The position numbers and the translations under genes were made by a program. This document shows, one piece after another, positions 41,999-57,411 of a DNA stretch of 64,000 nucleotides. The notes beneath the pieces were generated by a model. That model did not search any database, was not told where the DNA came from, and saw nothing but the letters and a program-made list of their open reading frames with translations. The DNA comes from Streptomyces sp. NBC_01463 (GTDB lineage Bacteria > Actinomycetota > Actinomycetes > Streptomycetales > Streptomycetaceae): the NCBI GenBank assembly GCA_036227345.1, contig CP109468.1, forward strand, positions 620,001 to 684,000. Direction: 5' to 3'. Within the stretch, counting starts at the first letter, position 1. Every line of letters starts with the position of its first letter.

Positions 41999-42832
41999 TC
42001 AGGTGGCCGCCCGGCTCGCGAGGTACTCGGTGAGGCCCCGGTCGGTGAGCGGGTAGTAGTCGGAGAGCAGCCCGCCCTCGTCGAGGCGTTGGCGCGCGAA
42101 CGCCTCCCGGTCCTGGTGCAGCAGGGAGTCCTCGGCGAGCGGGATCGCGTTCTGCTGCGGCACGACGACGGCGCCGTCCTCATCGGCGACGATCAGGTCG
42201 CCGGGCGTGACGAGGGAGCCGCCGACACCGACCGGTACGTTGAAGGCCGACGGGAACAGCTCGGTCTGCGAGGCGTAGTGCGGGGTGACACCGGTGCACC
42301 AGATGGGGACACCGAGCGCACGCACCCGGGCCGCGTCCCGTACCCGGCCGTCCACCACGATCCCGGCCCCGCCGCGCAGCTTGAAGTAGCGCACGAGCAT
42401 GTCGCCGAGGCAGCCGGTGAAGTGACTGCCGTGAGCTGCCACGACCAGGATGTCACCCGGCTGGATCGACTCCAGAACGCCCCAGAGCGGGGTCTTGCTC
42501 TCGATGTCCTCCTGCTCGGCGCCGTTGAAGACGTCCTCCCGCTGCGGGAGGAACTGCAGGGTCACGGCGCCGCCGGTGATCTTGACGTCCGGTTCGCGGT
42601 GCAGCGGGACGGGGCCGTCGATGAACGTCCGGGTGATGCCCATCTGATGCAGCTTCGCGCAGGCGGTCGCCGCGCTCACGTCCTTCAGGGCGTCCACCAT
42701 CTGCGCCGTGGGCCGCACGTAGGACGAGGTGTGGACCGGTGATCGCATCGACGCGTAGGCACCGGTCCCCTCCGTCCCGTTCGTGCGGGTCTCCCCCGTC
42801 GGCGCCGCCGTCTGTTCCTCCATCGGGTGCAT
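41999..42832 (-). CDS. RraA-like protein / 4-hydroxy-4-methyl-2-oxoglutarate aldolase family
   Basis: I start at ATG 42832 (MHPMEEQTAA), preceded by GAGAGG; 277 residues. The RraA/HMG-aldolase fold shows DVSAATACAKLHQMGITRTF, IQPGDILVVAAHGSHFTGCL, GDMLVRYFKLRGGAGIVVDG, RVRDAARVRALGVPIWCTGV, and VTPGDLIVADEDGAVVVPQQ. GD...AK/R..G..G...DG.VRD is the substrate and metal site of the aldolases. In this sugar-acid cluster it may split a 2-keto-3-deoxy acid (inference). It diverges from the fucosidase with CTATCGAT operators in between. Confidence 0.82.
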   Translation of the reverse strand: MHPMEEQTAAPTGETRTNGTEGTGAYASMRSPVHTSSYVRPTAQMVDALKDVSAATACAKLHQMGITRTFIDGPVPLHREPDVKITGGAVTLQFLPQREDVFNGAEQEDIESKTPLWGVLESIQPGDILVVAAHGSHFTGCLGDMLVRYFKLRGGAGIVVDGRVRDAARVRALGVPIWCTGVTPHYASQTELFPSAFNVPVGVGGSLVTPGDLIVADEDGAVVVPQQNAIPLAEDSLLHQDREAFARQRLDEGGLLSDYYPLTDRGLTEYLASRAAT

Positions 42833-42878
42833 GCACGTGCCTCTCCGCGCGCTCGTCGCACGCAACGCCAGTGACATC

Positions 42879-42913
42879 ATCGCCTATCGATGGTAGATAA
42901 CAGCCAATCGATT
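42879..42913. promoter_or_regulatory. operator pair, site 1 (ATCGCCTATCGAT and AATCGATT)
   Basis: ATCGCCTATCGAT is at 42879-42891 and the palindrome AATCGATT at 42906-42913. They lie in the 109-bp divergent region between the RraA-like and GH29 genes. It is one of five CTATCGAT sites in the cluster. Confidence 0.7.
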
Positions 42914-42941
42914 AGTGCTGTCAATGCGTCAGGAGCCCTCC

Positions 42942-44228
42942 GTGACCGGTGTCCCCACAGATTCCGCCGATTGTGCCGAATCCCCTGATTCCACCGCCTG
43001 GTTCGAGGCCGCCCGCTTCGGACTCTTCGTCCATTTCGGCCTGTACAGCATGGCGGCGCGGCACGAGTGGGTACGCAGCCGGGAGGCCATGTCGCAGGAG
43101 GCGTACGACCGTTACCTCGACCGCTTCGACCCCGACCTGTTCGATGCCCGTCAACTCGCGCGCGCCGCGAAGGAGTCGGGGATGCGGTACGCGGTGCTGA
43201 CGGCCAAGCACCACGACGGCTTCTGCCTGTTCGGCTCGGCGCTCACCGACTACACCTCGGTGCGGGCGACGGGCCGCGATCTGGTGCGTGAGTTCGTCGA
43301 CGCGATGCGCGCCGAGGGCCTGCGGGTGGGCCTGTACTACTCACTGCTCGACTGGCACCACCCCGACTTCACCATCGACGAGCACCACCCCCTGCGCGGC
43401 ACCGCGGCGGCGGAGGAACCCCGCGACATGGCGCGCTACCGCGCGTACATGGAGGGCCAGATCCGCGAACTCCTCACCGGTTACGGGAAGATCGACACCC
43501 TCTTCTTCGACTTCACGTACCCGGAGAAGGGCCCGGAGGAGTGGGGTGCGGAACACCTTCTGTCCACGGTACGGGCGTTGCAGCCGGACATCCTCGTCAA
43601 CGACCGCCTCGGCGTGCCCGGGGACTACGTCACTCCCGAGCAGTACCAGCCCGACCGGCCGCTGGAGCGGGCCGGCGAGCGGGTGACCTGGGAGGCCTGC
43701 CACACACTCAACGGCTCGTGGGGCTACGACCGTGACAACCACGACTACAAGGACCCCGCGCTGCTGGTCCGGATGCTGGTGCAGTCCGTCGCCTGCGGCG
43801 GCAACCTCATCCTGAACGTCGGGCCCACCGGCCGCGGCGCCCTGGACCCGCAGGCCCGCGCCACGCTCCGGGCCATCGGCGACTGGTCGGCGCTGCACGA
43901 GCGGTCCGTGCGGGGTGCGGGGCCGAGCGCCCACGAACCGCCCGCGGCCGGCCTCTACACGCAGGCCGGAAACCGCCTCTATCTGCATCTGCCGGTCTGG
44001 CCGCTGAAGCACCTGCACCTGCCGGGGCTGGCCGGGCGCGTGCGCTACGCCCAACTCCTGCACGACGGTTCGGAGATCCTGTTCAGCGAGCTGGACGGCA
44101 CGCGGCACGAGCACAACAACCTCGCGCCGCCGAGCCAGCCGACGGGGACCCTCACCCTGACCCTGCCGATCGCCCGGCCCGACGTGCTGCTCCCCGTCAT
44201 CGAGCTGGAACTGGACGGCGCGGAGTGA
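42942..44228 (+). CDS. alpha-L-fucosidase, GH29
   Basis: 428 residues from GTG 42942, with AGGAG six bases upstream; starts at 42915 and 42924 overlap the operator. GH29 marks: WFEAARFGLFVHFGLYSMAA, GMRYAVLTAKHHDGFCLFGS, VRATGRDLVREFVDAMRAEG, LYYSLLDWHHPDF and LFFDFTYPEKGPEEW with Asp190 as the likely nucleophile. NGSWGYDRDNHDYK and GGNLILNVGPTGRGAL are also diagnostic. No signal peptide, so it acts in the cytoplasm on imported fucosyl-oligosaccharides, supplied by the downstream ABC importer. Transcription is probably controlled at the TATCGAT sites. Confidence 0.92.
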   Translation: MTGVPTDSADCAESPDSTAWFEAARFGLFVHFGLYSMAARHEWVRSREAMSQEAYDRYLDRFDPDLFDARQLARAAKESGMRYAVLTAKHHDGFCLFGSALTDYTSVRATGRDLVREFVDAMRAEGLRVGLYYSLLDWHHPDFTIDEHHPLRGTAAAEEPRDMARYRAYMEGQIRELLTGYGKIDTLFFDFTYPEKGPEEWGAEHLLSTVRALQPDILVNDRLGVPGDYVTPEQYQPDRPLERAGERVTWEACHTLNGSWGYDRDNHDYKDPALLVRMLVQSVACGGNLILNVGPTGRGALDPQARATLRAIGDWSALHERSVRGAGPSAHEPPAAGLYTQAGNRLYLHLPVWPLKHLHLPGLAGRVRYAQLLHDGSEILFSELDGTRHEHNNLAPPSQPTGTLTLTLPIARPDVLLPVIELELDGAE

Positions 44229-44325
44229 ACCCCGGGGCGGGGCCTTCACGTTGAGCGGCGTCATCGGATCCCAGAGGTTGCGGCAGCACTCTTGAGAAAG
44301 AGAGAACCCAGCCCTAGCATCAACA

Positions 44326-44338
44326 ATCGATAGACGAT
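44326..44338 (-). promoter_or_regulatory. operator, site 2 (ATCGTCTATCGAT)
   Basis: Read on the minus strand the 13-mer is ATCGTCTATCGAT. It lies in the 270-bp gap before the binding-protein gene, 129 bp upstream of site 3. Confidence 0.65.
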
Positions 44339-44454
44339 TGGCTTGAAGGTGAGGGCCCTGCCCCGCCTCCCCCCGCACCGCACGACCCGCCGGGCAATCC
44401 GCACTTGCGCCCGCACCCCCCTGCCGCTGCTCCACCGGGAGTACGCGGCTGCAG

Positions 44455-44467
44455 AACAGCTATCGAT
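44455..44467 (+). promoter_or_regulatory. operator, site 3 (AACAGCTATCGAT)
   Basis: It retains the CTATCGAT core but not the ATCG flank. It lies 32 bp before the binding-protein ATG. Sites 2 and 3 flank the likely promoter of the importer operon. Confidence 0.55.
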
Positions 44468-44498
44468 TATTCACGACTACGCAACGGAGCGTGTCCCG

Positions 44499-45743
44499 AT
44501 GAAAACTAAGTGGCGCCGTACTTGCGGGCTCGCCGTGGCCCCCCTGCTGATGGCATCGGCCGTCGCCTGCGGCGGCGGGTCCGGCCAGGCCTCGGACGGC
44601 ACGACTCTCCGCGTGATCGTGAACATCACGCCGAACCTGACGGAGAAGTACTGGAACGACCTCTTCGCCTCCTACGAGAAGGCGCACCCCGGGGTCGACA
44701 TCAAGCTCGAACTGACCGGCACGATCTCGGCGGACGCGAAGCTGCGCCAGGACCTGGCGGCGGGCGATCCGCCGGATGTCGCCCAGCAGATCGTCCCGAC
44801 CGCCGACACCGCCTCGCTCTTCGCCGACCTGTCCGACCAGCCCTGGACCGCCAAGACTCCGCTGGCCGACCAGTACGCCGTCGGCGGCAAGCGCTACGTC
44901 GTCGGCGTGGGTGAGCAGATCCAGTCGCTCGTCTTCTACAACAAGGCCGCCTTCGAGAAGGCGGGGCTCGATGCCTCGAAGATCCGGACCATGGATCAGT
45001 TCACCGCGGCGATGGGCGACTTGAAGGGCGCGGGGTACAAGCCGCTGCAGGCCGCCGGCCAGTGGGTCACCGGATCGCAGTTCTCGATGATGGCCGACGC
45101 GGGGGTGCTCACCGCCGACCCCCGGTGGACGGTCAAGCGCAACGACGGCAAGGCCTCCTTCGCGAAGAGCGGCTACCTGCCCTACCTGGAGCGGTACAAG
45201 GGCTGGATAGACAAGGGCTACCTGGAGAAGAGCGCGCTCGGCCTCACCTACGCGGACGGGCAGACGGCCTTCCTGAACGGCAAGTCCGCGATGTACATCA
45301 TGGGTTCGTTCTTCGTGCCCGCCGCGGACGCCGCCAAGAAGAGCGACGACATCGGCGTGTTCACCATGCCGACCGACGGGGCTTACCCGTCGGGCCAGTT
45401 CGGCAACATCTCGAACCCGTACGTCGTGGTCGGCAAGTCGCGGCACAAGGCCGAGGCGGTCAAGTTCGTGAAGTGGGCGACCACCGACCCGGCGGCCATC
45501 AGGAGCCAGCTCGCCTCCGACGCGAACCTGCGGGAGGGCTTCACGTACAAGATGTCCAGCCTCGGCACCGCCGTGCAGCAGATCCTGGACAAGGCGCCCT
45601 CGGTGATCGTGAAGTCCGGTGAGAGCCAGCCGATCGCGGGCTTCAGCGACGAGCTCAACAAGCAGGTCCAGTCCCTGTACACGGGCTCGTCCGCCTCGGG
45701 TGCGGCCGACGGATTGGACAAGTGGTGGAACTCGCAGAGCTGA
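44499..45743 (+). CDS. sugar ABC transporter substrate-binding lipoprotein (CUT1)
   Basis: 414 residues. Lipobox ASAVAC ends at Cys24, so it is a surface-anchored binding protein. The fold is the family-1 extracellular solute-binding type, with RVIVNITPNLTEKYWNDLFA, FASYEKAHPGVDIKLELTGT, KLRQDLAAGDPPDVAQQIVP, FYNKAAFEKAGLD and TAFLNGKSAMYIMGSFF. It feeds the two permeases that follow without gaps. No ATPase gene is in the cluster; in Streptomyces the shared ATPase MsiK usually energises CUT1 importers. Substrate is inferred from neighbours to be a fucose-containing oligosaccharide. Confidence 0.92.
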   Translation: MKTKWRRTCGLAVAPLLMASAVACGGGSGQASDGTTLRVIVNITPNLTEKYWNDLFASYEKAHPGVDIKLELTGTISADAKLRQDLAAGDPPDVAQQIVPTADTASLFADLSDQPWTAKTPLADQYAVGGKRYVVGVGEQIQSLVFYNKAAFEKAGLDASKIRTMDQFTAAMGDLKGAGYKPLQAAGQWVTGSQFSMMADAGVLTADPRWTVKRNDGKASFAKSGYLPYLERYKGWIDKGYLEKSALGLTYADGQTAFLNGKSAMYIMGSFFVPAADAAKKSDDIGVFTMPTDGAYPSGQFGNISNPYVVVGKSRHKAEAVKFVKWATTDPAAIRSQLASDANLREGFTYKMSSLGTAVQQILDKAPSVIVKSGESQPIAGFSDELNKQVQSLYTGSSASGAADGLDKWWNSQS

Positions 45744-46651
45744 CCGCGGGACCGGATCTCCGGGCACGGCGCCGGGCGCGGCTGCGCGAGTCGGCCGTCT
45801 CCTTCGGGATGATGGGCCCGGCGGTGCTGCTCTACACGGTGATGACCGTCGTCCCGGTGGGAGTCGCGGTCTACCTCAGTTTCACCGACTGGGACGGCTT
45901 CTCCACCGCCGCCTTCACCGGACTCGACAACTACAAGCACCTCTTCGACGACCCGAGTTCGTCGGACGCCTGGTACGTGACGGCGCTGATCGCCGCGGTC
46001 GGCACGGTCCTGATGGTGGGCCTGGGGCTCGTGTACGCGCTCGCGCTCAAGGGCCGTTCGCGTGCGAACTCGTTCTTCCGGGCCGTCGCGTACTTCCCGC
46101 ATGTGATCAGCGCGCTGATCCTGGGCTATCTGTGGGCGGCGATCCTCGGCACCAACGGCGCCATCAACAACACGCTCGCCAAGTTCGGGATCGAGCCGGT
46201 CGGCTTCCTCTTCGACGAGCAGTTCGCGCTGATCTCGCTGATCGCCGTGATCGTCTGGGCCGGATTCGGTTTCAACGTCGTGCTGTTCGTCGCCGCCCTG
46301 CAGACGGTGCCGGCCGAGCTGCTGGAGGCGGCGGCGATCGACGGCGCCTCCAAGCGGCAGATCAACCTGCGGATCGTGATCCCCATGATCGCGCCCGTGG
46401 TGACCGTGGCGACGGTGCTGAACCTGGTGGGGCTGATCCGGGCGTACGACATCGTGGTCAGCCTCACCGGAGGCGGTCCGGCCGGGTCCACGCAGACGTT
46501 CACCTATCTCATTCTCGCCCGGTCCTTCGAGGGCACCAAGGTCGGCTACGCGACCGCGCAGGCGGTGTTCCTGATGGTGGTGTCCGCGGTGTTCGCCCTC
46601 GTGGTGACGGCGCTGCGCAACCGTCAGGACCAGGCCGCGACAGGAAGTTAG
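45722..46651 (+). CDS. sugar ABC transporter permease (MalF type)
   Basis: 309 residues from GTG 45722, overlapping the end of the binding-protein gene by 22 bases; GTG 45725 is equally possible. Six membrane helices are visible (VLLYTVMTVVPVGVAVYLSF, LIAAVGTVLMVGLGLVYALA, AVAYFPHVISALILGYLW, LISLIAVIVWAGFGFNVVLF and others). The EAA loop that contacts the ATPase is LEAAAIDGASKRQINLRIVI. The GGGPAGSTQTF segment is typical of CUT1 permeases. It pairs with the following gene. Confidence 0.92.
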   Translation: MVELAELTAGPDLRARRRARLRESAVSFGMMGPAVLLYTVMTVVPVGVAVYLSFTDWDGFSTAAFTGLDNYKHLFDDPSSSDAWYVTALIAAVGTVLMVGLGLVYALALKGRSRANSFFRAVAYFPHVISALILGYLWAAILGTNGAINNTLAKFGIEPVGFLFDEQFALISLIAVIVWAGFGFNVVLFVAALQTVPAELLEAAAIDGASKRQINLRIVIPMIAPVVTVATVLNLVGLIRAYDIVVSLTGGGPAGSTQTFTYLILARSFEGTKVGYATAQAVFLMVVSAVFALVVTALRNRQDQAATGS

Positions 46652-46660
46652 GAGCCGTTG

Positions 46661-47572
46661 GTGGTTGTACTGGAAGCAGAGGTCCGCGACAGGCCGAAGG
46701 TCGCGCCGGCCAAGGCGGACGACGCGCCGCGGGCGGACCGGGAGGAGTCCCGCTCGCCCGTGCGGTGGGCCCTTCTCGGGGTGCTCTTCGTCGTCATGAT
46801 CGTGCCGGTGTACCTGCTCGTGGTGAACGCCTTCAAGTCGCAGCAGGACATCCTCGACAACCCGTTCTCGATCCCGCTCGGCGGGCTGACCTTCGAGCAC
46901 ATGTCGGCGGCGGTCAACAGCCCGCAGTTCAACGTCATCCACGGCTACGGCTTCACGCTGTTCCTCGTCGTTCTCGTGGACGTGCTGTGCATCCTGCTCG
47001 CGGGCCCCGCCGCGTACGCGATCGCGCGCAGCCTCAAACGGCGCACCCAGCTGGTCCTGCTGTACTTCCTGGCCGGCACGTTCATCCCGGGTGCCGCGGT
47101 GATCATCCCGGTGATCTACGTGCTGCGCGAGATCGGCCTGGCCAACACGGTGACCGGCCTGGTCGCGCACGATGTGGCGTCCACCCTGCCGGTGAGCATC
47201 TTCCTGTTCGTCGGCTTCATCCGCACCATCCCGGTGGACATCGACCACGCGGCGACGATCGACGGCGCGGGCCGCAACCGGACGTTCTGGTCGATCATCT
47301 TCCCCCTGATGCGCCCGGCGGTCGTCACCGTGCTCATCCTCAACTCGATCGGGATCTGGAACGACTTCATCTCCCCGCAGATCCTGCTCAGCCCCTCGTC
47401 GGGGCACTACACGGTCACCACGGCGGTCTACGCCGGCATCAGCCAGTACTCGACCGACCTGACGAAGGTGTTCCCCAACCTCCTGCTCGCCATCGCACCC
47501 GTCGTCATCTTCTTCATCTACATGCAGCGCCACATCATCAGCGGTCTCACCGTCGGCGCCGTGAAGGGCTGA
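46661..47572 (+). CDS. sugar ABC transporter permease (MalG type)
   Basis: 303 residues from GTG 46661, where AGGAG is six bases upstream; a TTG at 46658 is too close to the Shine-Dalgarno. Six helices are visible (ALLGVLFVVMIVPVYLLVVN, LFLVVLVDVLCILLAGPAAY, FLAGTFIPGAAVIIPVIYVL, VRTI-type loop). The EAA-like loop is DHAATIDGAGRNRTFWSIIF. NAFKSQQDILDNPFSIPLGG and IGIWNDFISPQILL are family-typical. It lies nine bases after the MalF-type gene. Confidence 0.92.
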   Translation: MVVLEAEVRDRPKVAPAKADDAPRADREESRSPVRWALLGVLFVVMIVPVYLLVVNAFKSQQDILDNPFSIPLGGLTFEHMSAAVNSPQFNVIHGYGFTLFLVVLVDVLCILLAGPAAYAIARSLKRRTQLVLLYFLAGTFIPGAAVIIPVIYVLREIGLANTVTGLVAHDVASTLPVSIFLFVGFIRTIPVDIDHAATIDGAGRNRTFWSIIFPLMRPAVVTVLILNSIGIWNDFISPQILLSPSSGHYTVTTAVYAGISQYSTDLTKVFPNLLLAIAPVVIFFIYMQRHIISGLTVGAVKG

Positions 47573-47646
47573 ACCCGGACGCCGCCCGGGTGCGACACCC
47601 CCGTCCGAGAACGAGCCGATCCCAGAGAAAGGACTCCGGAGTGCCG

Positions 47647-49632
47647 ATGAGAAGGAGGCCGCCGTCCCGCACGGGACTGTGGTCCGCAGCCGCCCTGCTC
47701 GCATCCCTGACCATGGTGGCGGCCGGCCACCCCGCCGCCGCCCATCCGGTCCGCCCCCTGGCGGGACAGACCTACTACGTCTCGCCGGCCGGCCAGGACA
47801 CCGCCGACGGCAAGACCACCGGCACGCCGTTCCGGCACATCCAGAAGTGTGCCGACGTGCTGGTGCCCGGTGACACGTGTCTGATCCTGTCCGGCACGTA
47901 CGAGGAGACCGTCGTGCCGGCGCGCTCCGGCACCGCCGCGCTCCCCATCACCTACCGTGCCGCGCCGGGGGCGGACGTCACGGTGAGCGGCGCCTCCAGG
48001 ATCGGCGGCTTCGAGCCGGTCACCGCCGCCGATGTCACCGCGATCGCCCAGGCCGATCCGTTCGCCGCGAACTCGCAGTTCAGCGACGCGGTGGCGGCCG
48101 GACACATCTACAGCACGGACGTCGACCTCGGCGCGGACGTGAGCACCGTCCAGGTGTTCACCGACAAGACGATGGACATCGAGGCGCAGTGGCCCTATCC
48201 CGGGCTCGACCTCCTCGACCCCGCGCTCCAGTACGCCGGCGCGGGCAGCGCGGACGCCACCGTCGCCGACGCGGACCTGACCCGCCCGGCGGGGTACTGG
48301 GACGGCGCGCGTGCCCTCACCGGCTACTGGTACATCTCGGCCACCACCACGGTGAAGAGCTCGGCCGTCGGCTCGGTGACGCTGGACGCCGCGCCGCCGT
48401 GCGTCCACAAGGTCGTGCCCGCCGAGACGCGCTACGCGCTCTCCGGGAAGATCGGCGAACTCGCCCACCCCGGCGAGTGGTTCTACGACGCGACCGCCAA
48501 GCGGCTGTACCTGTACGGCACCGACGACCCGGACAGCCACGTCGTCGAGGCCAAGCGCCGCACCCTCGGCTTCGACCTGACGAACACCGGCCACACCACG
48601 ATCGACGGGATCGGCCTGTTCGCCACCACGGTCAAGACCGGTCCGACCAGCACCGGCGTCACCCTGGACGGCATCAAGGGCAGGTACCTGTCGCACTACA
48701 CCGACATCACCCGGGGCGCGACCGACTGCGGCAGCACGGTGACGCGGGGCGTCGGTGACACCGGGATCATCCTCGACGGCACCCACAACAGCGTCGTGAA
48801 CAGCGATCTGTCGCTGAGCGCCGGGAACGGCATCGCGCTGCGCGGACAGAACAACACCGCGACGGACAACGTGATCCACGACGTCGACTACATGGGCACC
48901 TACGCGGCGGGCATCGCCGTGCAGGGCAACAGCCAGACGGTCACGCACAACACGATCTCCCGCGTCGGCCGCAGCGGCATCAACCTCCAGTGGAACGAGG
49001 TGGCGGGCCTCACCCCGGGCAAGGACGTGATCGCCTACAACGACATCTCCGGGTACGCCCGGATGAGCCTGGACGTCGCCGCGATCTACACCTGCTGCAG
49101 CGCGTGGATGATGGGCACCGCCATCGACCACAACGTGCTGCACGACCCGGCGCCGGCCACGACGTCGACCACGTTCGGGATCTCGGGGATCTACGCCGAC
49201 AACGGCCAGAGCGACCTCGTGATCGCGAACAACGTGGGCTGGGGCAACCGGGAGGGCACCGTGATGCTCAACGGTCTGGGCACCGGATCGCACGACAACG
49301 GCGTCTACAACAACACCGGCGGCATGACGCTGTTCTACGTGAAGGAGCCGGGGCAGTCGACCGGAACGAAGATCTACAACAACCTGGGGACGATCCGGGG
49401 TCTCGCCGGCGCGACGGACGGCGGGCTCGTCCTCTCCGACAACCTCGACCCGGCCGTCGATCCGCTGTTCGTCGACGCGGCGAACCATGACTTCCGGCTC
49501 ACCGCCGGATCACCGGCACGCAATCAGGCGATCGCGCTGCCGGGCATCAACGACGGTTCCGTGGATCCGGCGCCGAGTCTCGGGGCCTACCAGTACGGAG
49601 CACCCAAGTGGACGGCGGGCGCCCGCCGTTAG
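47647..49632 (+). CDS. secreted right-handed parallel beta-helix protein
   Basis: 661 residues from ATG 47647 (GGAG five bases upstream). A Sec signal ends near 33 (LLASLTMVAAGHPAAAHPVR). TYYVSPAGQDTADGKTTGTP, FRHIQKCADVLVPGDTCLIL and SGTYEETVVPARSGTAALPI start a beta-helix. Many NNTAT/IHDV/NTGG coil repeats follow, including TGIILDGTHNSVVNSDLSLS and AGIAVQGNSQTVTHNTISRV. It ends LFVDAANHDFRLTAGSPARN. The type occurs among pectin-type lyases and in GH141, a family with fucosidase members. Position after the importer suggests it degrades the polysaccharide outside the cell. The enzymatic class is not proven. Confidence 0.85.
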   Translation: MRRRPPSRTGLWSAAALLASLTMVAAGHPAAAHPVRPLAGQTYYVSPAGQDTADGKTTGTPFRHIQKCADVLVPGDTCLILSGTYEETVVPARSGTAALPITYRAAPGADVTVSGASRIGGFEPVTAADVTAIAQADPFAANSQFSDAVAAGHIYSTDVDLGADVSTVQVFTDKTMDIEAQWPYPGLDLLDPALQYAGAGSADATVADADLTRPAGYWDGARALTGYWYISATTTVKSSAVGSVTLDAAPPCVHKVVPAETRYALSGKIGELAHPGEWFYDATAKRLYLYGTDDPDSHVVEAKRRTLGFDLTNTGHTTIDGIGLFATTVKTGPTSTGVTLDGIKGRYLSHYTDITRGATDCGSTVTRGVGDTGIILDGTHNSVVNSDLSLSAGNGIALRGQNNTATDNVIHDVDYMGTYAAGIAVQGNSQTVTHNTISRVGRSGINLQWNEVAGLTPGKDVIAYNDISGYARMSLDVAAIYTCCSAWMMGTAIDHNVLHDPAPATTSTTFGISGIYADNGQSDLVIANNVGWGNREGTVMLNGLGTGSHDNGVYNNTGGMTLFYVKEPGQSTGTKIYNNLGTIRGLAGATDGGLVLSDNLDPAVDPLFVDAANHDFRLTAGSPARNQAIALPGINDGSVDPAPSLGAYQYGAPKWTAGARR

Positions 49633-49643
49633 TCCGCACGCGG

Positions 49644-49691
49644 ACGGCCGTGTGCCCGGCCCGGAAGACTCCGGGCCGGGCACACGGCCGT
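49644..49691. terminator. 22-bp perfect-stem bidirectional terminator
   Basis: Arms 49644-49665 and 49670-49691 are exact reverse complements (left arm begins ACGGCCGTGTGCC) around the 4-nt loop AGAC. It sits between the convergent beta-helix and GntR stops. Confidence 0.85.
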
Positions 49692-49696
49692 TCCGG

Positions 49697-50464
49697 TCAA
49701 CTCGACTTCGGCGACGCCTTCGCGGCCGCCGTCCGCTTCGTCGCGGCGGCCTTCCTGCGCGGCTTCCCCGGCTCCCGCACATCCGGCACGGGCCCGCGGC
49801 CCGCGGCGTGGTCGGCGAACGCCTGGGCCGCCTTGTCGGGCTCGCCGGTCCTCAGCAGGCTCACGAGCCGCCCGTGCTCCTCGGCCATCGCCTGCCAGTC
49901 ACCGCCGAACAGCGGGTCGGAGATGGCCCGCAGGGTGCGCAGACTCGGCTCGATGACCTCCCACATGCGGGCCAGGAAGGGATTGCCTGCGAACTGGCTG
50001 ACCAGGGAGTGGAACTCCACGTCGGCGTCGCGGAAGCTGCTGACGTCGTTCGCGGCCACCGCCCGGTGCATCCGCTCGACCTGCGCGTCGAGCTCGGCGA
50101 GCTGCTCCGGGGTGATGTGCTCGGCGGCAAGGCGCGCGGCGAGGCCCTCCAGCGGTTCACGCACCTGACGGGCGTAGTCGGCGTCCTGCGAGGAGATCTC
50201 GACGACGAAGTGCCCGCGCCGCGGCACGTGTGTGAAAAGGCCCTCACGGGCCAGCCGCTTGACGGCCTCGCGGACCGGGGCCTGGCTCACGCCGAGCCGC
50301 CGCGCGATCTCGGACTCGACCACACGGTCGTTCGGTGCGAGATCGCCCTCGACGACGGCCTGGCGGAGCAGTTCGTACACCTGGTCCGAGATCAGGGTCT
50401 TGCGGAACCGGTCCTTGTTGGTGGCCAGCGTGGAGACGAACCCACCGGACGCTTGTGATGCCAT
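49697..50464 (-). CDS. GntR-family (FCD) transcriptional regulator
   Basis: 255 residues from ATG 50464 (MASQASGG). The winged helix is LISDQVYELLRQAVVEGDLA, then SEIARRLGVSQAPVREAVKR and LAREGLFTHVPRRGHFVVEI. The FCD domain spans about 85-220, with RDADVEFHSLVSQFAGNPFL giving the D-x-x-F-H metal site and a later EEHGRLVSLLRTGEPDKAA. The last 30 residues (KPRRKAAATKRTAAAKASPK) form a lysine/alanine tail unlike most FadR relatives and like histone H1-type tails. It probably represses the cluster through the CTATCGAT sites until a sugar-acid inducer binds. Confidence 0.9.
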   Translation of the reverse strand: MASQASGGFVSTLATNKDRFRKTLISDQVYELLRQAVVEGDLAPNDRVVESEIARRLGVSQAPVREAVKRLAREGLFTHVPRRGHFVVEISSQDADYARQVREPLEGLAARLAAEHITPEQLAELDAQVERMHRAVAANDVSSFRDADVEFHSLVSQFAGNPFLARMWEVIEPSLRTLRAISDPLFGGDWQAMAEEHGRLVSLLRTGEPDKAAQAFADHAAGRGPVPDVREPGKPRRKAAATKRTAAAKASPKSS

Positions 50465-50502
50465 GAATTCCCAATCCTGCACTGGGGCACGTCAGTTGCG
50501 AC

Positions 50503-50508
50503 ATAATA
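50503..50508 (-). promoter_or_regulatory. candidate -10 for the GntR gene
   Basis: TATTAT on the minus strand, 38 bp before the ATG. No strong -35 was seen. Operator site 4 lies about 120 bp farther upstream. Confidence 0.35.
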
Positions 50509-50628
50509 CGCGCCCGACTTCGCTCGATGGAGTAGCACCGAGGTTTCCTGCTGTGCGGCCGGCCGGTGGAGCTCCGGCGTGTTCACCCTCCGGGCCGGCC
50601 CGGGGTGAGGAGGAGTCGGTTACTGATC

Positions 50629-50641
50629 ATCGCCTATCGAT
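50629..50641 (+). promoter_or_regulatory. operator, site 4 (ATCGCCTATCGAT)
   Basis: The same 13-mer as site 1, between the amidohydrolase stop and the GntR promoter. It suits autoregulation of the GntR gene or an upstream looping site. Confidence 0.65.
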
Positions 50642-50693
50642 CATCGAGGGAATCGAATCAGGGGCGTTCGAGCACTGTCAACCACGCGGGTGG

Positions 50694-51518
50694 TCAGCCG
50701 TCGAGTGCGTACACCCGGACCGCTGTCGTCCGCAGCACCTGATCGCGCTGATGGTCGGTCAGATGTGCCAGTCCGAGGCGGGACGTCGCGAGGGAGTCCG
50801 CCCGCGAGCCGCGGGGCAGACAGATCGGCCAGTCGGAGCCGATGAGGCAGCGGCCGGGGCCGAGCGTGTCCACGACGTGCCGCACCATGTGGGCGACTCG
50901 CTGCGGCGGGACCCCGTGCTGCTGGGTGAGCAGCCCGGAGATCTTCACCACCACGTCCGGGCTCGCGGCGGCGTGCTCGATGTCGCGGTACCACTCCCCC
51001 GCCGCGGGGGTCCGCAGGTCCGGCGGATTGCCCAGGTGGTCGACGACGACGGTCAGCCCGGGGTGCCGCGCGGCGGTGTCGACCGCGGCCGGCAGGGCGC
51101 TCCGGTGCAGGTTGAGCTCCAGGGCCACGCCTGCTCCGGCCAGTACGGGGACGAGCGCCCGGGCCGGTTCGGGGGTGTCGTCCCACGTGGCGCCGCCGAG
51201 CCGCATGCCGGCCGGGCGGGAGCCGCCCATCCCGTGCAGGAGGGCACGGAAGGCGTCCGGGCCGTCCTCGCCGTGGACGTGCAGGTTGGCGACGTATCCG
51301 GCGACCAGATCCGGGCGGCGCAGGCGCAGTTCACGCAGGGCGTGCGTCTCCCCCGCGTCGCCGCGCGACGCCTCCACCAGCACCGCCCCGGTCAGGCCGA
51401 GGCCGGCGCCCGACCGCTCCAGCTCGTCCTCGCCGTAGACCTGATGATGCTCGCCGCCGGGCTTGATCCACGGGAATCCCCTTGCCGGATCCCACAGGTG
51501 GACATGGCAGTCGATCAC
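50694..51518 (-). CDS. amidohydrolase-2 family, L-fuconolactonase-like
   Basis: 274 residues from GTG 51518, with GGAGGAGG upstream; the frame extends to 51596, but the VIDCHVHLWDP opening is the normal N-terminus. HVHLWDP carries the metal histidines. WIKPGGEHHQVYGEDELERS, VLVEASRGDAGETHALRELR, VVVDHLGNPPDLRTPAAGEW, VVKISGLLT and CLIGSDWPICLPRGS are the amidohydrolase-2 marks. Family members hydrolyse L-fucono-lactone and related lactones. It is read away from the 648-aa gene, whose start is 110 bp upstream, so operator site 5 can serve both. Confidence 0.88.
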   Translation of the reverse strand: MIDCHVHLWDPARGFPWIKPGGEHHQVYGEDELERSGAGLGLTGAVLVEASRGDAGETHALRELRLRRPDLVAGYVANLHVHGEDGPDAFRALLHGMGGSRPAGMRLGGATWDDTPEPARALVPVLAGAGVALELNLHRSALPAAVDTAARHPGLTVVVDHLGNPPDLRTPAAGEWYRDIEHAAASPDVVVKISGLLTQQHGVPPQRVAHMVRHVVDTLGPGRCLIGSDWPICLPRGSRADSLATSRLGLAHLTDHQRDQVLRTTAVRVYALDG

Positions 51519-51560
51519 GGTGCGCCTCCTCCTCGGAGCATGCGGGGCGGCTCCTGAGTA

Positions 51561-51590
51561 TTGACACGTCGGCTCCCCGCCGGTGAGTCT
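51561..51590 (+). promoter_or_regulatory. candidate promoter for the 648-aa gene
   Basis: TTGACA (51561-51566) with GAGTCT (51585-51590) 18 bp downstream. Operator site 5 begins five bases after it, where repressor binding would block transcription. Confidence 0.4.
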
Positions 51591-51594
51591 AACC

Positions 51595-51607
51595 ATCGGC
51601 TATCGAT
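51595..51607 (+). promoter_or_regulatory. operator, site 5 (ATCGGCTATCGAT)
   Basis: A full ATCGNCTATCGAT match between the divergent amidohydrolase and 648-aa genes, 21 bp before the latter's GTG. Confidence 0.68.
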
Positions 51608-51628
51608 GGGCGATTATTCAATGCTTAC

Positions 51629-53575
51629 GTGACGAGGGAGCAGGTGTTCTCGATGCTCAGCCCTGAGCGGACCGGCGGCACACACACGGGGGAAGGTGAA
51701 CACGGGCCACTGCTGACGGCGACGCGGAGCCTCACGGGAGTCCCCCGATGGGCGGAACTGGAACGGCAGTTGTTCGTCGTGCAGAACAAGGCATGGCGGC
51801 TCTTCGCCGACCGCTACACCGAGGGGGACGGCCGTCTCGTCTTCCGCGGCACGCTCGGCGAGGGCCTGGACGGCCGGGACGGCGTGGACGACTTCTACGA
51901 GCCGTTCTTCAACTGGCCGACGCTGTATCTGCTGGGCGGCAGCGAGGAGTTGCTGTCCGCCGCGCACCGGCACTGGCGCGGGGTCAGTGCCCAGCTCGCC
52001 GAGATGGGCATGCTCAGCGACGGCCTGGAGCGCGGCTACGACTGGTTCCACCAGGGCGAGGGCCTGCTGCTGTTCTACGGCCTGTGCCTGGCCGACCCGG
52101 ACGACGCGGAACTGCGCGAACTCGCCTGCCGTTTCGCCGACTTCTACCTTCCCGGCGGCCCCAACTACGACTCCGCGAACCGGGTCCTGCGCGCCCCGCA
52201 CAACGGTTCGGCGGGACCGCGCTTCGGCTTCAGCGACGAGGAGGCGTACTTCCCGTGGAGCGAGGCCCTGCGCCCGTACGGCCTGCCGCTGGACGGGGTC
52301 GACGACGTGCGGTCCTTCGACGACCTGTCCGGCTCACCCGAGCGCGCCCGGGCGTACGGCCGCGCGATGTGGGACCGGATGGGCCGCGGTGACACGATCG
52401 TGAACCTGGCCGCCACCGGCCTCGCGACCCATGCCTTCCTGCTCAGCGGCGAACGCCGGTACGCGGACTGGGTGGCGGAGTACGTCGGCGTGTGGCAGGA
52501 GCGGCTCGCCGGCCGGGACGTGGTGCCGGACAACGCCGGTCTGAACGGTGTCGTGGGTGAGTACCTGGACGGCCGCTGGTACGGCGGCCACTACGGGTGG
52601 TCCTGGCCGCACGGCCTGTCCCCCGTCGGAAGCGCCACCGTCATCGGCGCGGCCAACGCGACCCTGCTCACCGGGGACCGGGGCTTCCTGGACCTCGCCC
52701 GCAACCCCCTCGACGTGGTGCTATCGCGCGCCGAGGAGCGCGGGCCCGACGGGCGGGGCACGCTCGGCGAGCGCTGGGACCCCCACCTGCGCACGATGAC
52801 GGCCGAGCGCACCCTCATGGTCCCCCAGCGGCACAACGACTCCGGCTGGTTCGACTTCACCGTCATGCCCGGGCAACTGCCCCTTTCCCTGTGGCACTTC
52901 AGCCGGGAGGAGGCCGACCGGGAGCGGATCGAGCGCCTGCGTGCCGGTTCCCGCTGGGACTGGACCGCCGTGCACACCCAGCGCATCAAGGACGAGGCGG
53001 GACACGAGGAGCCCTGGTACGAGTTCCTGCACGGGCGGAACCCGCGGTATCCCGAGCTGATGCTGCACAGCGCGCTGGCGAGCTGCGCCGAGCGGGTGGA
53101 GGCCATCGAGAGCGACACCGTCGACCCGGCCGTCGGACCCGACGCCCTGGACATCCATCACTGGCAGCACCTCAACCCGGTGGTGACCGAGGCCCTGTTG
53201 CAGCTGACCACCGGGTCGCCGCAGGTGCTCTACAACGGCGGCGTCCTCCACCTGCACGTGCGCTACCACGACGCGGACACCCGGCGCCCCGGCCTGCCGC
53301 CGGACGTCGCCGCGCTCGTGTCCGACATCCGCCCGGACCACACGGTGGTCGAGCTGGTCAACCTCGGCGCGTCGGCGCGCTCCCTGCTGGTGCAGACGGG
53401 TTCGTTCGCCGAGCACCACATCGCCGCCGTCCGCGTGGACGACGGTCCCGAGCAGCCGGTCGGCGGGCCGTACTGCCGTGTCGGCCTGCCCGCGCACTCG
53501 GCGATCCGGCTGACCCTGACCATGACGCTCCGCGCGGGCCGTGCGGCCTGCGCCTCCCCGTGGGAGAAGGCATGA
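51629..53575 (+). CDS. uncharacterised 648-aa protein of the fucose-type cluster
   Basis: I do not recognise the family. The chain is soluble with no signal peptide or membrane helix. The first ~450 residues are helix-rich with aromatic-rich turns (FYEPFFNWPTLYLLGG, GYDWFHQGEGLLLFYGL, GGHYGWSWPHGLSPVGSA), as in alpha/alpha-toroid glycosidases or lyases. The last ~100 residues (VLYNGGVLHLHVRYHDADTR, HTVVELVNLGASARSLLVQT) look like a beta-sandwich. It overlaps the reductase gene by four bases (ATGA) and shares operator site 5. It probably acts on an imported oligosaccharide or sugar acid. The GTG at 51629 is uncertain; GTG 51644 and ATG 51653 are alternatives. Confidence 0.75.
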   Translation: MTREQVFSMLSPERTGGTHTGEGEHGPLLTATRSLTGVPRWAELERQLFVVQNKAWRLFADRYTEGDGRLVFRGTLGEGLDGRDGVDDFYEPFFNWPTLYLLGGSEELLSAAHRHWRGVSAQLAEMGMLSDGLERGYDWFHQGEGLLLFYGLCLADPDDAELRELACRFADFYLPGGPNYDSANRVLRAPHNGSAGPRFGFSDEEAYFPWSEALRPYGLPLDGVDDVRSFDDLSGSPERARAYGRAMWDRMGRGDTIVNLAATGLATHAFLLSGERRYADWVAEYVGVWQERLAGRDVVPDNAGLNGVVGEYLDGRWYGGHYGWSWPHGLSPVGSATVIGAANATLLTGDRGFLDLARNPLDVVLSRAEERGPDGRGTLGERWDPHLRTMTAERTLMVPQRHNDSGWFDFTVMPGQLPLSLWHFSREEADRERIERLRAGSRWDWTAVHTQRIKDEAGHEEPWYEFLHGRNPRYPELMLHSALASCAERVEAIESDTVDPAVGPDALDIHHWQHLNPVVTEALLQLTTGSPQVLYNGGVLHLHVRYHDADTRRPGLPPDVAALVSDIRPDHTVVELVNLGASARSLLVQTGSFAEHHIAAVRVDDGPEQPVGGPYCRVGLPAHSAIRLTLTMTLRAGRAACASPWEKA

Positions 53576-54528
53576 CCGACCGGCCGGCAGCCAAGCGGCT
53601 GCCCTTCACCCTGCCCCGCATCGGCCTGGGCACCGCCCCGCTCGGCGGGCTCTTCGAGGACGTCGCCGACGAGGAGGCCGCCGCCACGCTCAAGGCGGCG
53701 GCCGCGGCCGGGATCACGTATTTCGACACGGCGCCCCGCTACGGACACGGGCTCGCCGAACAGCGTCTGGGCCGGCTGCTCGACCCGTCCGCCGACCCGG
53801 CCCCGCTGATCTCCACCAAGACCGGCTGGCTGCTGCGTCCCCGCCCGGACGGCTCCCCGGGCGAGGTGATCACCGACTGGACGGAGCGCGGCATCCGCGA
53901 GTCCCTGGAGTCGAGCCTGACGCGCCTGGGCCGCTCCAGCGTCGACATCCTGTATCTGCACGACCCGGACAACTACCCGGAGGAGATCCGCCGCACTGCC
54001 TATCCGGCGGTGCGCAGGCTGCGCGACGAGGGACTGGTGCGGGCCATCGGGTTCGGCATGAACCACAGCGGCCCGCTGGCCTCGTACGTGGCGGAGTTCG
54101 AGGTCGACGTCGTGCTCATCGCGGGCCGGCTCTCGCTCCTGGACCACGAGGCACTCACCACTCTGCTGCCGCTCTGCGGGGAAACGGGCACCTCGGTGGT
54201 CGTCGGCGGTGTGTTCAACACCGGTCTGCTGGCCGACCCGAACCCCGGCGCCATGTTCAACTACCGTCCCGTACCGGCGCAGACGCTGGAGCGGGCGCGG
54301 GAGTGCCGGGCCCTGTGCGACGCGTACGGCGTACCCCTGGCCGCGGCCGCGATCCAGTTCCCGCTGTTGCACGCCGCCGTCGACTCGGTCGTCCTCGGCT
54401 GCCGTTCGGCGGCGGAGGTCACGGCGAACGCGGCGAACGCGCGCTTCCCGGTCCCGGACGAGCTCTGGAAGGAGCTCGCGCGGGCCGGATTCGTGCCCGA
54501 GCAGCTGCTGGAGGAGCGCGCCGGATAG
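53572..54528 (+). CDS. aldo/keto reductase, L-fucose dehydrogenase-like
   Basis: 318 residues from ATG 53572, overlapping the previous stop (ATGA). LPRIGLGTAPLGGLFEDVAD, TYFDTAPRYGHGLAEQRLGR (catalytic Asp, Tyr), STKTGWLL (Lys), and VDILYLHDPDN (His) show the AKR active site. The LGGLFE and D-threo-aldose 1-dehydrogenase-like pattern suits oxidation of L-fucose to L-fucono-lactone with NAD(P), the step before the amidohydrolase. Together with GH29 and fuconolactonase this outlines the non-phosphorylated L-fucose route. A fuconate dehydratase is not in view. Confidence 0.87.
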   Translation: MTDRPAAKRLPFTLPRIGLGTAPLGGLFEDVADEEAAATLKAAAAAGITYFDTAPRYGHGLAEQRLGRLLDPSADPAPLISTKTGWLLRPRPDGSPGEVITDWTERGIRESLESSLTRLGRSSVDILYLHDPDNYPEEIRRTAYPAVRRLRDEGLVRAIGFGMNHSGPLASYVAEFEVDVVLIAGRLSLLDHEALTTLLPLCGETGTSVVVGGVFNTGLLADPNPGAMFNYRPVPAQTLERARECRALCDAYGVPLAAAAIQFPLLHAAVDSVVLGCRSAAEVTANAANARFPVPDELWKELARAGFVPEQLLEERAG

Positions 54529-54598: not shown

Positions 54599-56140
54599 TC
54601 AGTGGGCCACGACGGGGATCTTCACCTCGTCCTGGGCACCCTCCGTGGCGGACGACGCGGCCGCGGGGCCGCCCTGGTGACCCGCGTTGATCATCGTCAG
54701 CGCGATGCCCGCGGCGACCACCAGGATGCCGGCGGCCCACCAGGTGGCGGAGGCGTAACCGTCGACCATGGCCTGCGCCTGGACCAGCTTCTGTGCGGCC
54801 GGAGTGGTCGCACCCGCGGCGTGCGCGGCGAGGTAGGCGGTGGTGGCCGAGGCGGCGATGGTGTTCAGGAGCGCGGTGCCGATGGCGCCGCCGACCTGCT
54901 GCGAGGTGTTCACCATGGCGGAGGCGACACCGGCGTCACGCGGTGCGACACCGTGGGTGGCGAGCGACATGGCGGGCATGAACGCCGTCCCCATGCCGAG
55001 GCCGAGCAGCAGGAGCCCGGGCAGCACCAGTCCGGCGTACGAGCTGCCGATGTCCATCCGGGTCAGGCACAGCATGCCGGCCGCCGCGACCAGGAAGCCC
55101 GGGCCCATGAGCAGCCGCGGGGGCACCCTGGTCATCAGGCGCGCGCCGATCTGGGTGGAGCCCGTGATCATGCCCGCGACCATGGGCAGGAAGGCCAGTC
55201 CGGTCTTGATCGGCGAGTAGCCCTGGACGATCTGGAGGTAGTAGGTGAGGAAGAGGAAGGTGCCGAACATCGCGATGACGGCGAGTCCGAGCGAGAGGTA
55301 GACACCGCCGCGGTTGCGGTCGGCCGGCACGCGCAGCGGGAGCAGCGGGGCCTTGACCCTGGACTCGGTGACCAGGAACGCGGCGAGCAGCACCGCGGAG
55401 GCGACGAACATGCCGATCGTCAGGGCGTCCGACCAGCCGGCCGACTCGGCGCGGGTGAAGCCGTACACCAGGGCGACCAGGCCGAGGCAGGAGAGGACCA
55501 CGCCGGGGATGTCGAGCGGCGAGCGGTTGCGGCCGCCGGCGGGCTCACGGATCACGAAGTACGCGCCGAGCGCGGCGACGATCGCGAAGGGGACGTTGAC
55601 GAAGAACGTCCAGCGCCAGTTCAGGTACTCGGTCAGGGTGCCGCCGAGGATGAAGCCCACGGCGCCGCCGCCACCGGCGATCGCACCGTAGATGCCGAAC
55701 GCTTTGGCGCGCTCCCTGGCCTCGGTGAACGTCACCGCGAGCAGCGAGAGGGCCGCCGGTGCGAGCAGTGCGCCGAAGACGCCCTGCAGGGCGCGGGCGC
55801 CGAGCATCATGGCCTCGCCCTGGGCCGCGCCGCCGAGTACGGAGGCCAGTGCGAAGCCGGTCAGGCCGACGAGGAAGGCGCGCTTGCGCCCCCAGAGGTC
55901 GGCGATGCGGCCGCCGAAGAGCAGCAGACCGCCGAAGGCCAGGGCGTAGGCGGTGATGACCCATTGCCGGTTGCCGTCCGATATCCCCAGGTCCTGCTGG
56001 GCGGAGGGCAGCGCGATGTTCACGATGGTCGCGTCGAGCACGACCATCAGCTGGGCCAGGGCGATGAAGATGAGCGCTTTCCAGCGCCTGGGGTCGGGGC
56101 CGGTGTCGGTTCTTCCGGCGGACAGGACTGTTTCGGACAT
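54599..56140 (-). CDS. MFS transporter, DHA2 family (14-helix drug:H+ antiporter)
   Basis: 513 residues from ATG 56140 (MSETVLSAG); a start at 56176 is in frame. RWKALIFIALAQLMVVLDAT, IVNIALPSAQQDLGIS, NRQWVITAYALAFGGLLLFG and GRIADLWGRKRAFLVGL are the DHA2 opening with the loop 2-3 motif. Motif C (GAIAGGGGAVGFILGGTLTE) marks it as an antiporter. About 14 helices are visible. It is likely a proton-driven exporter for drugs or a metabolite. It lies downstream of an aldo/keto reductase on the same strand and may be in the same TetR regulon. Confidence 0.9.
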   Translation of the reverse strand: MSETVLSAGRTDTGPDPRRWKALIFIALAQLMVVLDATIVNIALPSAQQDLGISDGNRQWVITAYALAFGGLLLFGGRIADLWGRKRAFLVGLTGFALASVLGGAAQGEAMMLGARALQGVFGALLAPAALSLLAVTFTEARERAKAFGIYGAIAGGGGAVGFILGGTLTEYLNWRWTFFVNVPFAIVAALGAYFVIREPAGGRNRSPLDIPGVVLSCLGLVALVYGFTRAESAGWSDALTIGMFVASAVLLAAFLVTESRVKAPLLPLRVPADRNRGGVYLSLGLAVIAMFGTFLFLTYYLQIVQGYSPIKTGLAFLPMVAGMITGSTQIGARLMTRVPPRLLMGPGFLVAAAGMLCLTRMDIGSSYAGLVLPGLLLLGLGMGTAFMPAMSLATHGVAPRDAGVASAMVNTSQQVGGAIGTALLNTIAASATTAYLAAHAAGATTPAAQKLVQAQAMVDGYASATWWAAGILVVAAGIALTMINAGHQGGPAAASSATEGAQDEVKIPVVAH

Positions 56141-56272
56141 GGGAGTACCCACTTCGGAACTCAATTCGGAACTCATGAGGGACGTGACGAGCCGCTGCGT
56201 CGCCCGCGCGGGAGCGGAGCGGCCGGTGGTGAGCGGAAGCCTGTGGCGGTGCGCTCGGAGTGGTGGGAGGGT

Positions 56273-57301
56273 TCAGGCCGCGTTGCGCGTGGCCGTGGGA
56301 CGGCGGCGCCGGCCGGTCTCGGTCAGGGCGGGCGGGTTGTAGGCCATGTCGAGGGTGCCGATGTCGGTACCCGGGGGGACGATGGCGTCGATGCGGTCGA
56401 GGATCTCGTCGTCGAGCGTGGTGCCCATGCCGTCGAGGAGGTCCTCGAGGTGGTCCATGGTGCGCGGCCCGATGATGGCGGAGGTGACGCCGGGGTGGGC
56501 GATAGTGAAGGCCACGGCCAGGTGGGACATCTTGATGCCCGCCTCGTCCGCGAGCGGGATGAGCTGCTCGACGACGTCCAGGCGGCGCTCGTCCCTGAGG
56601 TGCTTGAAGCCGAAGGCTGCGCGGTGGGTGTCGACGGCCTCGCCCTTGCGGTAGCGGCCGGTGAGCAGCCCCTGGGCCAGGGGGCTCCAGACCAGGGCGC
56701 CCATGCCGTACTGCTCGCACAGGGGCAGGACATCGCGTTCGATCCCGCGGTTGAGGATCGAGTACGGCGGCTGCTCGGTACGGAAGCGCTGCAGGCCGCG
56801 CCGGTCGGCGACCCACTGGGCCTCGACGATCTCGGCGGCCGGTGTGGTGGAGGAGCCGATGGCCCGGACCTTGCCCGCCCGCATCAGGTCGGTGAGCGCG
56901 GAGAGCGTCTCCTCGACGTCCGTGTCCGGGTCGGGGCGGTGCATCTGGTAGAGGTCGATGTGGTCGGTCTGCAGACGGCGCAGCGAGTCCTCCACGGCGC
57001 GGACGATCCAGCGCCGCGAGTTTCCCTGCTGGTTGGGGTCGTCCCCCATCGCGACGTGCGCCTTGGTCGCCAGGACGACGTTGTCCCGGCGGCCCTTCAG
57101 GGCTTTGGCGAGGATCTCCTCGGACTCACCGCGTGAGTACATGTCGGCGGTGTCGACGAAGTTGATCCCGGCGTCCAGCGCCCTGTGCACGATTCGGGTG
57201 CAGTCCTCGTGATCGGTGTTGCCGAAGGCGCCGAACATCATGGCGCCCAGGCAGTAGGGGCTGACCTTGATCCCGGTCCGTCCCAGCGTGCGGTACTGCA
57301 T
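56273..57301 (-). CDS. aldo/keto reductase
   Basis: 342 residues from ATG 57301, with GGAGGAA upstream. MQYRTLGRTGIKVSPYCLGA, FVDTADMYSRGESEEILAKA (Asp, Tyr), ATKAHVAMGDDPNQQGNSRR (Lys) and IDLYQMHRPDPDTDVEETLS (His) give the complete catalytic tetrad. VWSPLAQGLLTGRYRKGE and GVTSAIIGPRTMDHLEDLLD place it in the YajO/Tas-like branch. It reduces aldehydes or ketones with NADPH. It is divergent from TetR, with two palindromic operators in the 110-bp gap, so it is the primary target. The C-terminal RRRRPTAT tail is unusual but short. Confidence 0.9.
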   Translation of the reverse strand: MQYRTLGRTGIKVSPYCLGAMMFGAFGNTDHEDCTRIVHRALDAGINFVDTADMYSRGESEEILAKALKGRRDNVVLATKAHVAMGDDPNQQGNSRRWIVRAVEDSLRRLQTDHIDLYQMHRPDPDTDVEETLSALTDLMRAGKVRAIGSSTTPAAEIVEAQWVADRRGLQRFRTEQPPYSILNRGIERDVLPLCEQYGMGALVWSPLAQGLLTGRYRKGEAVDTHRAAFGFKHLRDERRLDVVEQLIPLADEAGIKMSHLAVAFTIAHPGVTSAIIGPRTMDHLEDLLDGMGTTLDDEILDRIDAIVPPGTDIGTLDMAYNPPALTETGRRRRPTATRNAA

Positions 57302-57349
57302 GGCGTTCCTCCTCTGGGCTGCCGGTCGGGGGTCCGGCTAGAATGAAAC

Positions 57350-57390
57350 CGGAACACCGTTCAGCAACCACAATACGGAACAACGTTCCG
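57350..57390. promoter_or_regulatory. two TetR operator sites (CGGAACANCGTTCNG)
   Basis: CGGAACACCGTTCAG (57350-57364) and the perfect palindrome CGGAACAACGTTCCG (57376-57390) are centred 26 bp apart. They occupy the divergent region between the reductase and the TetR gene. Confidence 0.75.
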
Positions 57391-57411
57391 CAGCGCAAAA
57401 GGGAACCCTCC

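Follow-up and report, generated by a model that had tools for sequence, protein, structure and literature searches.

We analysed a 64,000-nucleotide stretch of the Streptomyces sp. NBC_01463 genome (contig CP109468.1, positions 620,001 to 684,000), which we call the window and number from its first letter. It contains a putative sugar-use cluster, which encodes an RraA-like protein, a GH29 alpha-L-fucosidase-like protein, an ATP-binding cassette (ABC) importer, a GntR-family regulator with an FCD domain (GntR/FCD), a lactonase-like amidohydrolase, and a protein of 648 amino acids (648-aa). Copies of a 20-bp near-palindrome lie at the predicted promoters of this one cluster and nowhere else in the genome. 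With considerable confidence, we predict that they are the operators of one local regulon, in which the GntR/FCD protein would bind them as a dimer and repress transcription, and a product of the sugar substrate would release it.

A sequence-only reading of the window had pointed to four copies of the 13-mer ATCGNCTATCGAT, had noticed none elsewhere in the window, and had argued that so many would almost never arise by chance. A pattern search of the window returned these four sites (42879, 50629, and 51595 on the plus strand and 44326 on the minus strand). The shorter CTATCGAT occurs five times (42884+, 44326-, 44460+, 50634+, and 51600+), while 0.30 copies are expected, and no more than two arose in any of 100 dinucleotide shuffles. 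Neither exact string is found in the window outside the cluster. With up to two mismatches, ATCGNCTATCGAT has 10 matches in the window versus 1.8 expected, and a count of 10 was reached in 0 of 100 shuffles, which bears out the argument against chance; two of the 10 matches (10388 and 18408) lie outside the cluster. When aligned on their ATCGAT core, the sites are 20-bp near-palindromes, ATCGNCYATCGATRGNCGAT. The same reading had listed a core-only copy at 44455 (AACAGCTATCGAT) and AATCGATT at 42906. Both are present, but they are conserved secondary sites of the 20-bp unit and not stray cores.

The genome-wide scan which that reading had suggested found four matches to the exact 13-mer in 9,071,628 bases, all of them in the cluster, and none to its reversed control. 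Allowing one mismatch added four scattered half-sites across the genome, none of which extends to the complete palindrome at up to 3 mismatches. A search for the 20-mer palindrome itself, with up to 3 mismatches, returned the four cluster sites and one unrelated match whose core is broken (C1:4216596); the reversed control gave one match per strand. The original observation holds and is stronger than first stated.

The sites travel with the regulator. We surveyed 392 genomes of the genus and scored six GntR candidates per genome. The 13-mer is present in 43 genomes, and 12 of these have at least two matches within 15 kb. These are precisely the 12 genomes in which the GntR protein is matched best, 11 of them at 80-100% identity and one (G246) at 54%; the next best genome is at 49%. 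A search of named records gave 22 loci with GntR orthologues, of which 14 are titled Streptomyces and the other 8 are from Nonomuraea, Thermocatellispora, [Actinomadura], Jiangella, and one metagenome-assembled genome. Conservation beside orthologues had also been proposed as a check, and each of the 22 loci has two or more sites. With the window included, a site precedes RraA/GH29 in 23/23 loci, lactonase/648-aa in 22/22 loci that reach that region, and the importer in 21/23; a site lies within 420 bp of gntR in 15/23. Among 91 sites with up to 5 mismatches, 80 are within 420 bp of the starts of these genes, and the remaining 11 are all ahead of the acetyl-esterase gene AXE1 (10 intact genes and one remnant). 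Together, the genome-wide count and the presence of sites in every orthologue locus, mostly at the same promoters, support the earlier proposal of a local regulon.

The cluster's own GntR/FCD protein (255 aa; 49697..50464, minus strand) very probably reads these sites, as the sequence-only reading had supposed. Its co-occurrence with the sites, the retention of the core beside GntR proteins of 49-55% identity, and an unusual DNA-reading surface all argue for this. Of the genes that the window shares with the loci, gntR alone has a DNA-binding product, and two nearby TetR genes have no counterparts there; this comparison covers window genes, and genes confined to relatives are not all annotated. 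The protein contains the GntR winged helix (PF00392; 59.9 bits, cut-off 27) and the FCD domain (PF07729; 107.5 bits, cut-off 24.3), and its predicted structure (mean predicted local distance difference test score, or pLDDT, of 85.2) has GntR-family structures as its best Foldseek matches. Metal-binding FCD proteins typically have an Asp/His/His/His set of ligands. The putative equivalents, D148, H152, H197, and H219, are invariant in 48 aligned sequences.

In FadR, Arg35 and Arg45 contact G (Suvorova et al., PMC4494728, Table 1). By the mapping in that table, Ser51 and Gln61 occupy these positions here. The segment SQAPVR (60-65), which includes Gln61, is invariant in 48/48 homologues (42-89% identity), so the recognition-helix arginine (FadR Arg45), which is typical of the family but not defining, is absent from all of them; Ser51 is merely frequent. 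The usual operator boxes of the FCD subfamily are TKGT/ACMA (PMC4494728), although they do not define it, since BioR and NanR do without them. The replacement of the G-reading arginines is consistent with the lack of GT/AC boxes in our operator. In contrast, seven more distant FCD proteins of the genus (L069-L075) all retain the second arginine, and L069 and L071-L074 retain both. ATCGAT is absent from the 300 bp upstream of all seven, and L071 and L072 have TGGTATACC upstream.

More distant relatives of the regulator show a similar pattern. TATCGAT cores are found beside GntR proteins of 49-55% identity that contain SQAPVRE, at L044, L099, L100, and the plasmid locus L111, where they stand at the matching importer, gntR, or beta-helix promoters. 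(L044 was chosen by the motif itself; the other three were chosen by the GntR protein alone.) The core is absent from six loci of 47-48.5% relatives with a changed helix (L101-L105 and L112). Three of these, L101, L103, and L105 (about 9200-9440), encode longer GntR proteins, with an open frame of ~400 aa and an extra N-terminal part, and share an upstream element, ATTAACTATCGTTGCTCGAT, which is possibly another operator class.

All of the sites had been described as intergenic, and this stands after two start positions are corrected by eye. The mechanical start of the RraA-like open reading frame (ORF; 42880) falls within the 42879 site, but there is a start at 42832 that has a ribosome-binding site and leaves the operator between genes. 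Similarly, a GTG at 51518, after GAGGAGGAGG, is very likely the start of the amidohydrolase in place of 51596, which would make the 51595 site intergenic.

The promoters described here were called by eye, except that the importer promoter came from a scan of 42500-52000. We compared promoter places across 27 loci, using the rows that fitted the search strings. Operator O1 (42879..42898, plus strand; ATCGCCTATCGATGGTAGAT; 2 mismatches to the palindrome) lies where the RraA-like and GH29 genes diverge and overlaps the -10 of the RraA promoter. This promoter has a TTGACA -35 box (42919..42924, minus strand), an 18-nt spacer, and TTATCT (42895-42900, minus strand); TTGACA is at this place in 25/25 such rows, from 25 of the 27 loci. 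Within the spacer is the secondary operator O1b (42900..42919, plus strand; core AATCGATT at 42906-42913). Among the 22 loci L077-L098, this core is found in 12 of the 14 with Streptomyces in their titles and in none of the remaining 8. The importer promoter, TTGAGA-17-TAGCAT (44292..44320, plus strand), was the sole promoter-like match in the scanned region. The final two bases of its -10 are inside operator O2 (44319..44338, minus strand; 2 mismatches), and relatives' importer rows have TTGAA with TAGC or TAAC. A secondary operator, O3 (44455..44474, plus strand; AACAGCTATCGATTATTCAC), lies ~33 bp upstream of the importer start, and CTATCGATTATTCA or a near variant is found in 17/27 loci.

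Operator O4 (50629..50648, plus strand; 3 mismatches) is 165 bp upstream of gntR. The promoter that faces gntR (50652..50681, minus strand) has TTGACA at 50676-50681, an 18-nt spacer, and TTCGAT at 50652-50657, and O4 follows; TTGACA is conserved in 13/13 fitting rows, from 13 of the 27 loci. The best site, O5 (51595..51614, plus strand; 1 mismatch), lies between the lactonase and 648-aa genes. It follows the promoter of an operon that contains the 648-aa gene and an aldo/keto reductase (AKR) gene (51561..51590, plus strand), with TTGACA at 51561-51566, an 18-nt spacer, and a weak -10, GAGTCT, at 51585-51590; here TTGACA is near the expected place in 22/22 fitting rows, from 22 of the 27 loci. 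Thus, the main operators are at or just past the predicted -10 elements that serve the importer operon, gntR, and the RraA-like/GH29 and lactonase/648-aa+AKR pairs, which suggests repression.

The binding, repression, ligand, and substrate that we infer would fit together as follows. A GntR/FCD dimer would occupy the operators and block RNA polymerase at sigma-A-type promoters, because each main site is on or just downstream of a -10. The repressor would be released when its FCD domain takes up a sugar acid, or another product of the substrate, at the Asp/His/His/His metal site. Release would switch on the GH29 fucosidase, the ABC importer and a beta-helix protein, the AKR (as a sugar dehydrogenase), the lactonase, the RraA-like aldolase, the 648-aa enzyme with its predicted (alpha/alpha)-barrel, and gntR itself.

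Several observations weigh against this interpretation. Outside the 12 genomes with clustered sites, there are 33 scattered 13-mer matches in 31 genomes of the genus, compared to 4 in 392 for the reversed control, and G070 and G179 each have one extra match outside the cluster, in a homologous stretch upstream of an unrelated gene. Two Jiangella loci have no importer site, and 8/23 loci lack a site within 420 bp of gntR (six of them have an AXE1 gene with its own site upstream). The orthologues descend from a common ancestor, and among the 22 named loci at least 6 are on contigs equal in length to those of clusters from the 392 genomes, so the two sets are not independent. The importer promoter was one match where 0.5 were expected, the remaining promoters were called by eye, and the cluster's importer has no ATPase gene with it. 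The sites read ATCGNCYATCGAT, without the GT..AC boxes that operators of the subfamily typically have. L099 and L100 are near-copies of each other, with differences in the outer half of the site. L044 and L111 have Ala at position 51 even though the core is present, and several of the 47-48.5% relatives without the core also have Ser51 and Gln61. These exceptions to a two-residue code slightly lower our confidence both in the proposed regulon and in a new class of operator.

The missing GT/AC boxes are also what might lead one to assign these operators to a regulator encoded elsewhere, with some other role for the local GntR. LacI-type operators are often centred on CG, as this palindrome is. 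We think this improbable, given that clustered sites accompany the gntR gene in 12/12 genomes and 22/22 loci, that GntR is the sole DNA-binding product among the shared window genes, that the core persists beside GntR proteins of 49-55% identity, and that the arginines which would read GT are replaced in this very protein. If GntR is the binder, it might instead act as an activator or a dual regulator. O1b, O1, O2, and O3 provide several sites per promoter region, which would allow a dual role, but the main sites overlap the -10/start region and are not upstream of the -35 (with promoters called by eye), so we consider anything other than simple repression quite improbable. It is scarcely credible that the similarity is just a repeat, a chance pattern, or an effect of composition, with no regulatory role. 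The single copies in 31 cluster-free genomes of the genus, in excess of the reversed control, would fit that explanation, as would one conserved and apparently coding sequence that is common to 9 of the 29 fetched loci; but the count was never reached in 100 shuffles, and the sites are intergenic and are kept across families while their flanks largely change.

The 50629 site had been taken as the site of the gntR gene. It does face gntR now, but ancestrally it was probably the promoter of a deleted AXE1 gene. AXE1 is located upstream of gntR and is found in 13/22 relatives as an intact gene and in one more as a fragment (L077 has a shrunken remnant); an O4-type site precedes it in 10 of the relatives that carry it, while the AXE1 genes of L080, L084, and L093 lack such a site. 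In the window, a putative deletion scar (50536..50552, minus strand) matches, by eye, the intact gene's 3' end in L078 and L081. Beside it is a decayed gntR-proximal operator (50515..50532, minus strand; CTCCATCGAGCGAAGTCG; by eye); 10/22 relatives have an ATCGAT site 60-95 bp upstream of gntR. Because AXE1 appears to be lost except for its 3' end and the proximal operator has decayed, O4 is most likely the stranded promoter of the deleted acetyl-esterase gene. The alignment behind this deletion was made by eye.

The RraA-like aldolase-family protein (41999..42832, minus strand) contains PF03737 and matches the NF006093 subfamily (235 bits, cut-off 208). The GH29 alpha-L-fucosidase-like protein (42942..44228, plus strand; start by eye) scores 281.2 bits for the Alpha_L_fucos domain (PF01120; cut-off 25.2; ORF from 42915), and by eye it has no obvious signal peptide. 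The importer comprises a solute-binding protein (44499..45743; PF01547), with a lipobox-like N-terminus by eye, and two permeases (45722..46651 and 46658..47572; both PF00528), all on the plus strand. The right-handed beta-helix protein (47590..49632, plus strand; PF05048 NosD) has a signal-peptide-like N-terminus by eye, and its match to the xylosidase 3vst is confined to residues 61-144. The sugar-lactonase-like protein (50694..51518, minus strand) belongs to Amidohydrolase_2 (PF04909, scored on the ORF from 51596); with that ORF, it scores 75.9 bits for L-fucono-1,5-lactonase (NF052480), versus a cut-off of 400.

The 648-aa protein (51629..53575, plus strand) belongs to PF26099, as do all 120 of the homologues listed for it; 961 homologues were found among 7992 candidates scored. 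Some sources name PF26099 members as linalool dehydratase/isomerase-domain proteins, and we found no known reaction for the family in this analysis. The model (mean pLDDT 88.9) has an (alpha/alpha)-barrel and a beta-sandwich, and the closest folds are GH76, GH47, unsaturated glucuronyl hydrolases, and sugar epimerases, so it is predicted to have a sugar-enzyme-like fold. PF26099 homologues are linked to RraA-like, AKR, and importer genes. The AKR gene (53572..54528, plus strand) starts inside the 648-aa stop codon (ATGA overlap). The earlier listing of the cluster had missed this member of the 648-aa operon. Its nearest solved structures are L-galactose dehydrogenases (E 2e-26), and it reaches no NCBIfam cut-off. 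Adjoining the cluster is a region without the motif (54599-58017), which encodes a DHA2-type major facilitator superfamily efflux pump (with an EmrB-type score above cut-off), another aldo/keto reductase, and a divergent TetR regulator.

The earlier label of the cluster as fucose-type is plausible, except that the lactonase falls below NCBI's fuconolactonase cut-off. The substrate is likely an oligosaccharide bearing L-fucose (or L-galactose) that would be broken down oxidatively. A heparinase II/III-like protein is added in 8/22 relatives, and AXE1 deacetylases are also found in relatives. We propose that the cluster uses an acetylated, fucose-bearing acidic glycan via an oxidative pathway; this is the weakest part of our interpretation. 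L099 and L100 contain a related operon (importer, PF26099, RraA, AKR, lactonase, and gntR) with further sugar-acid-type genes downstream; the genes downstream in L099 include those for an enolase-type dehydratase, a dihydrodipicolinate synthase-type protein, and a short-chain dehydrogenase/reductase.

The oxidative (non-phosphorylating) L-fucose pathway comprises a sugar dehydrogenase, an amidohydrolase lactonase, and an aldolase. A candidate dehydrogenase, a lactonase-like protein, and an RraA-like putative aldolase are likewise clustered here with a fucosidase-like protein. Unlike in that pathway, the lactonase is far below the fuconolactonase cut-off, we saw no fuconate dehydratase gene in the cluster, and there is an additional PF26099-family enzyme.

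Known catabolic regulons of the FadR (FCD) type include those of DgoR, UxuR, and HypR (PMC4494728) and of Streptomyces SCO1678 (PMC5425828). As in these, a winged helix-turn-helix FCD regulator is combined with palindromic operators and divergent gene pairs, and the ligand is probably a sugar acid or other carboxylic acid. But the operator core is CTATCGATAG instead of TKGT..ACMA, Ser51 and Gln61 replace FadR's two G-reading arginines, and the substrate is probably fucosides. BioR, which reads TTATMKATAA, and NanR and FarR, which read direct repeats, illustrate that motifs which lack the usual spacing or boxes can still be read by FCD or HutC proteins; they act in other pathways, and an ATCGAT-centred 20-bp palindrome is listed for none of them (PMC4494728). 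Among top-ranked open-access literature, we found no paper on this regulon or operator.

More tentatively, and without counting it as probable, we suggest that an actinobacterial FCD clade, with an invariant SQAPVR helix start and Ser/Ala and Gln in place of the arginines, may read a new, CTATCGATAG-centred class of operator. It would control a widespread and undescribed system for the catabolism of glycans that are acetylated, bear L-fucose, and contain uronate; this system would include PF26099 proteins and, in relatives, the AXE1 deacetylase and the heparinase-like protein. The predicted operator provides a testable regulon for a sugar-use cluster of several actinobacterial genera. The reading residues and the DNA signal appear to have changed together, which makes this regulon a natural test case for how GntR/FCD proteins recognise DNA, and the uncharacterised PF26099 enzyme family is tied to apparent fucoside breakdown.

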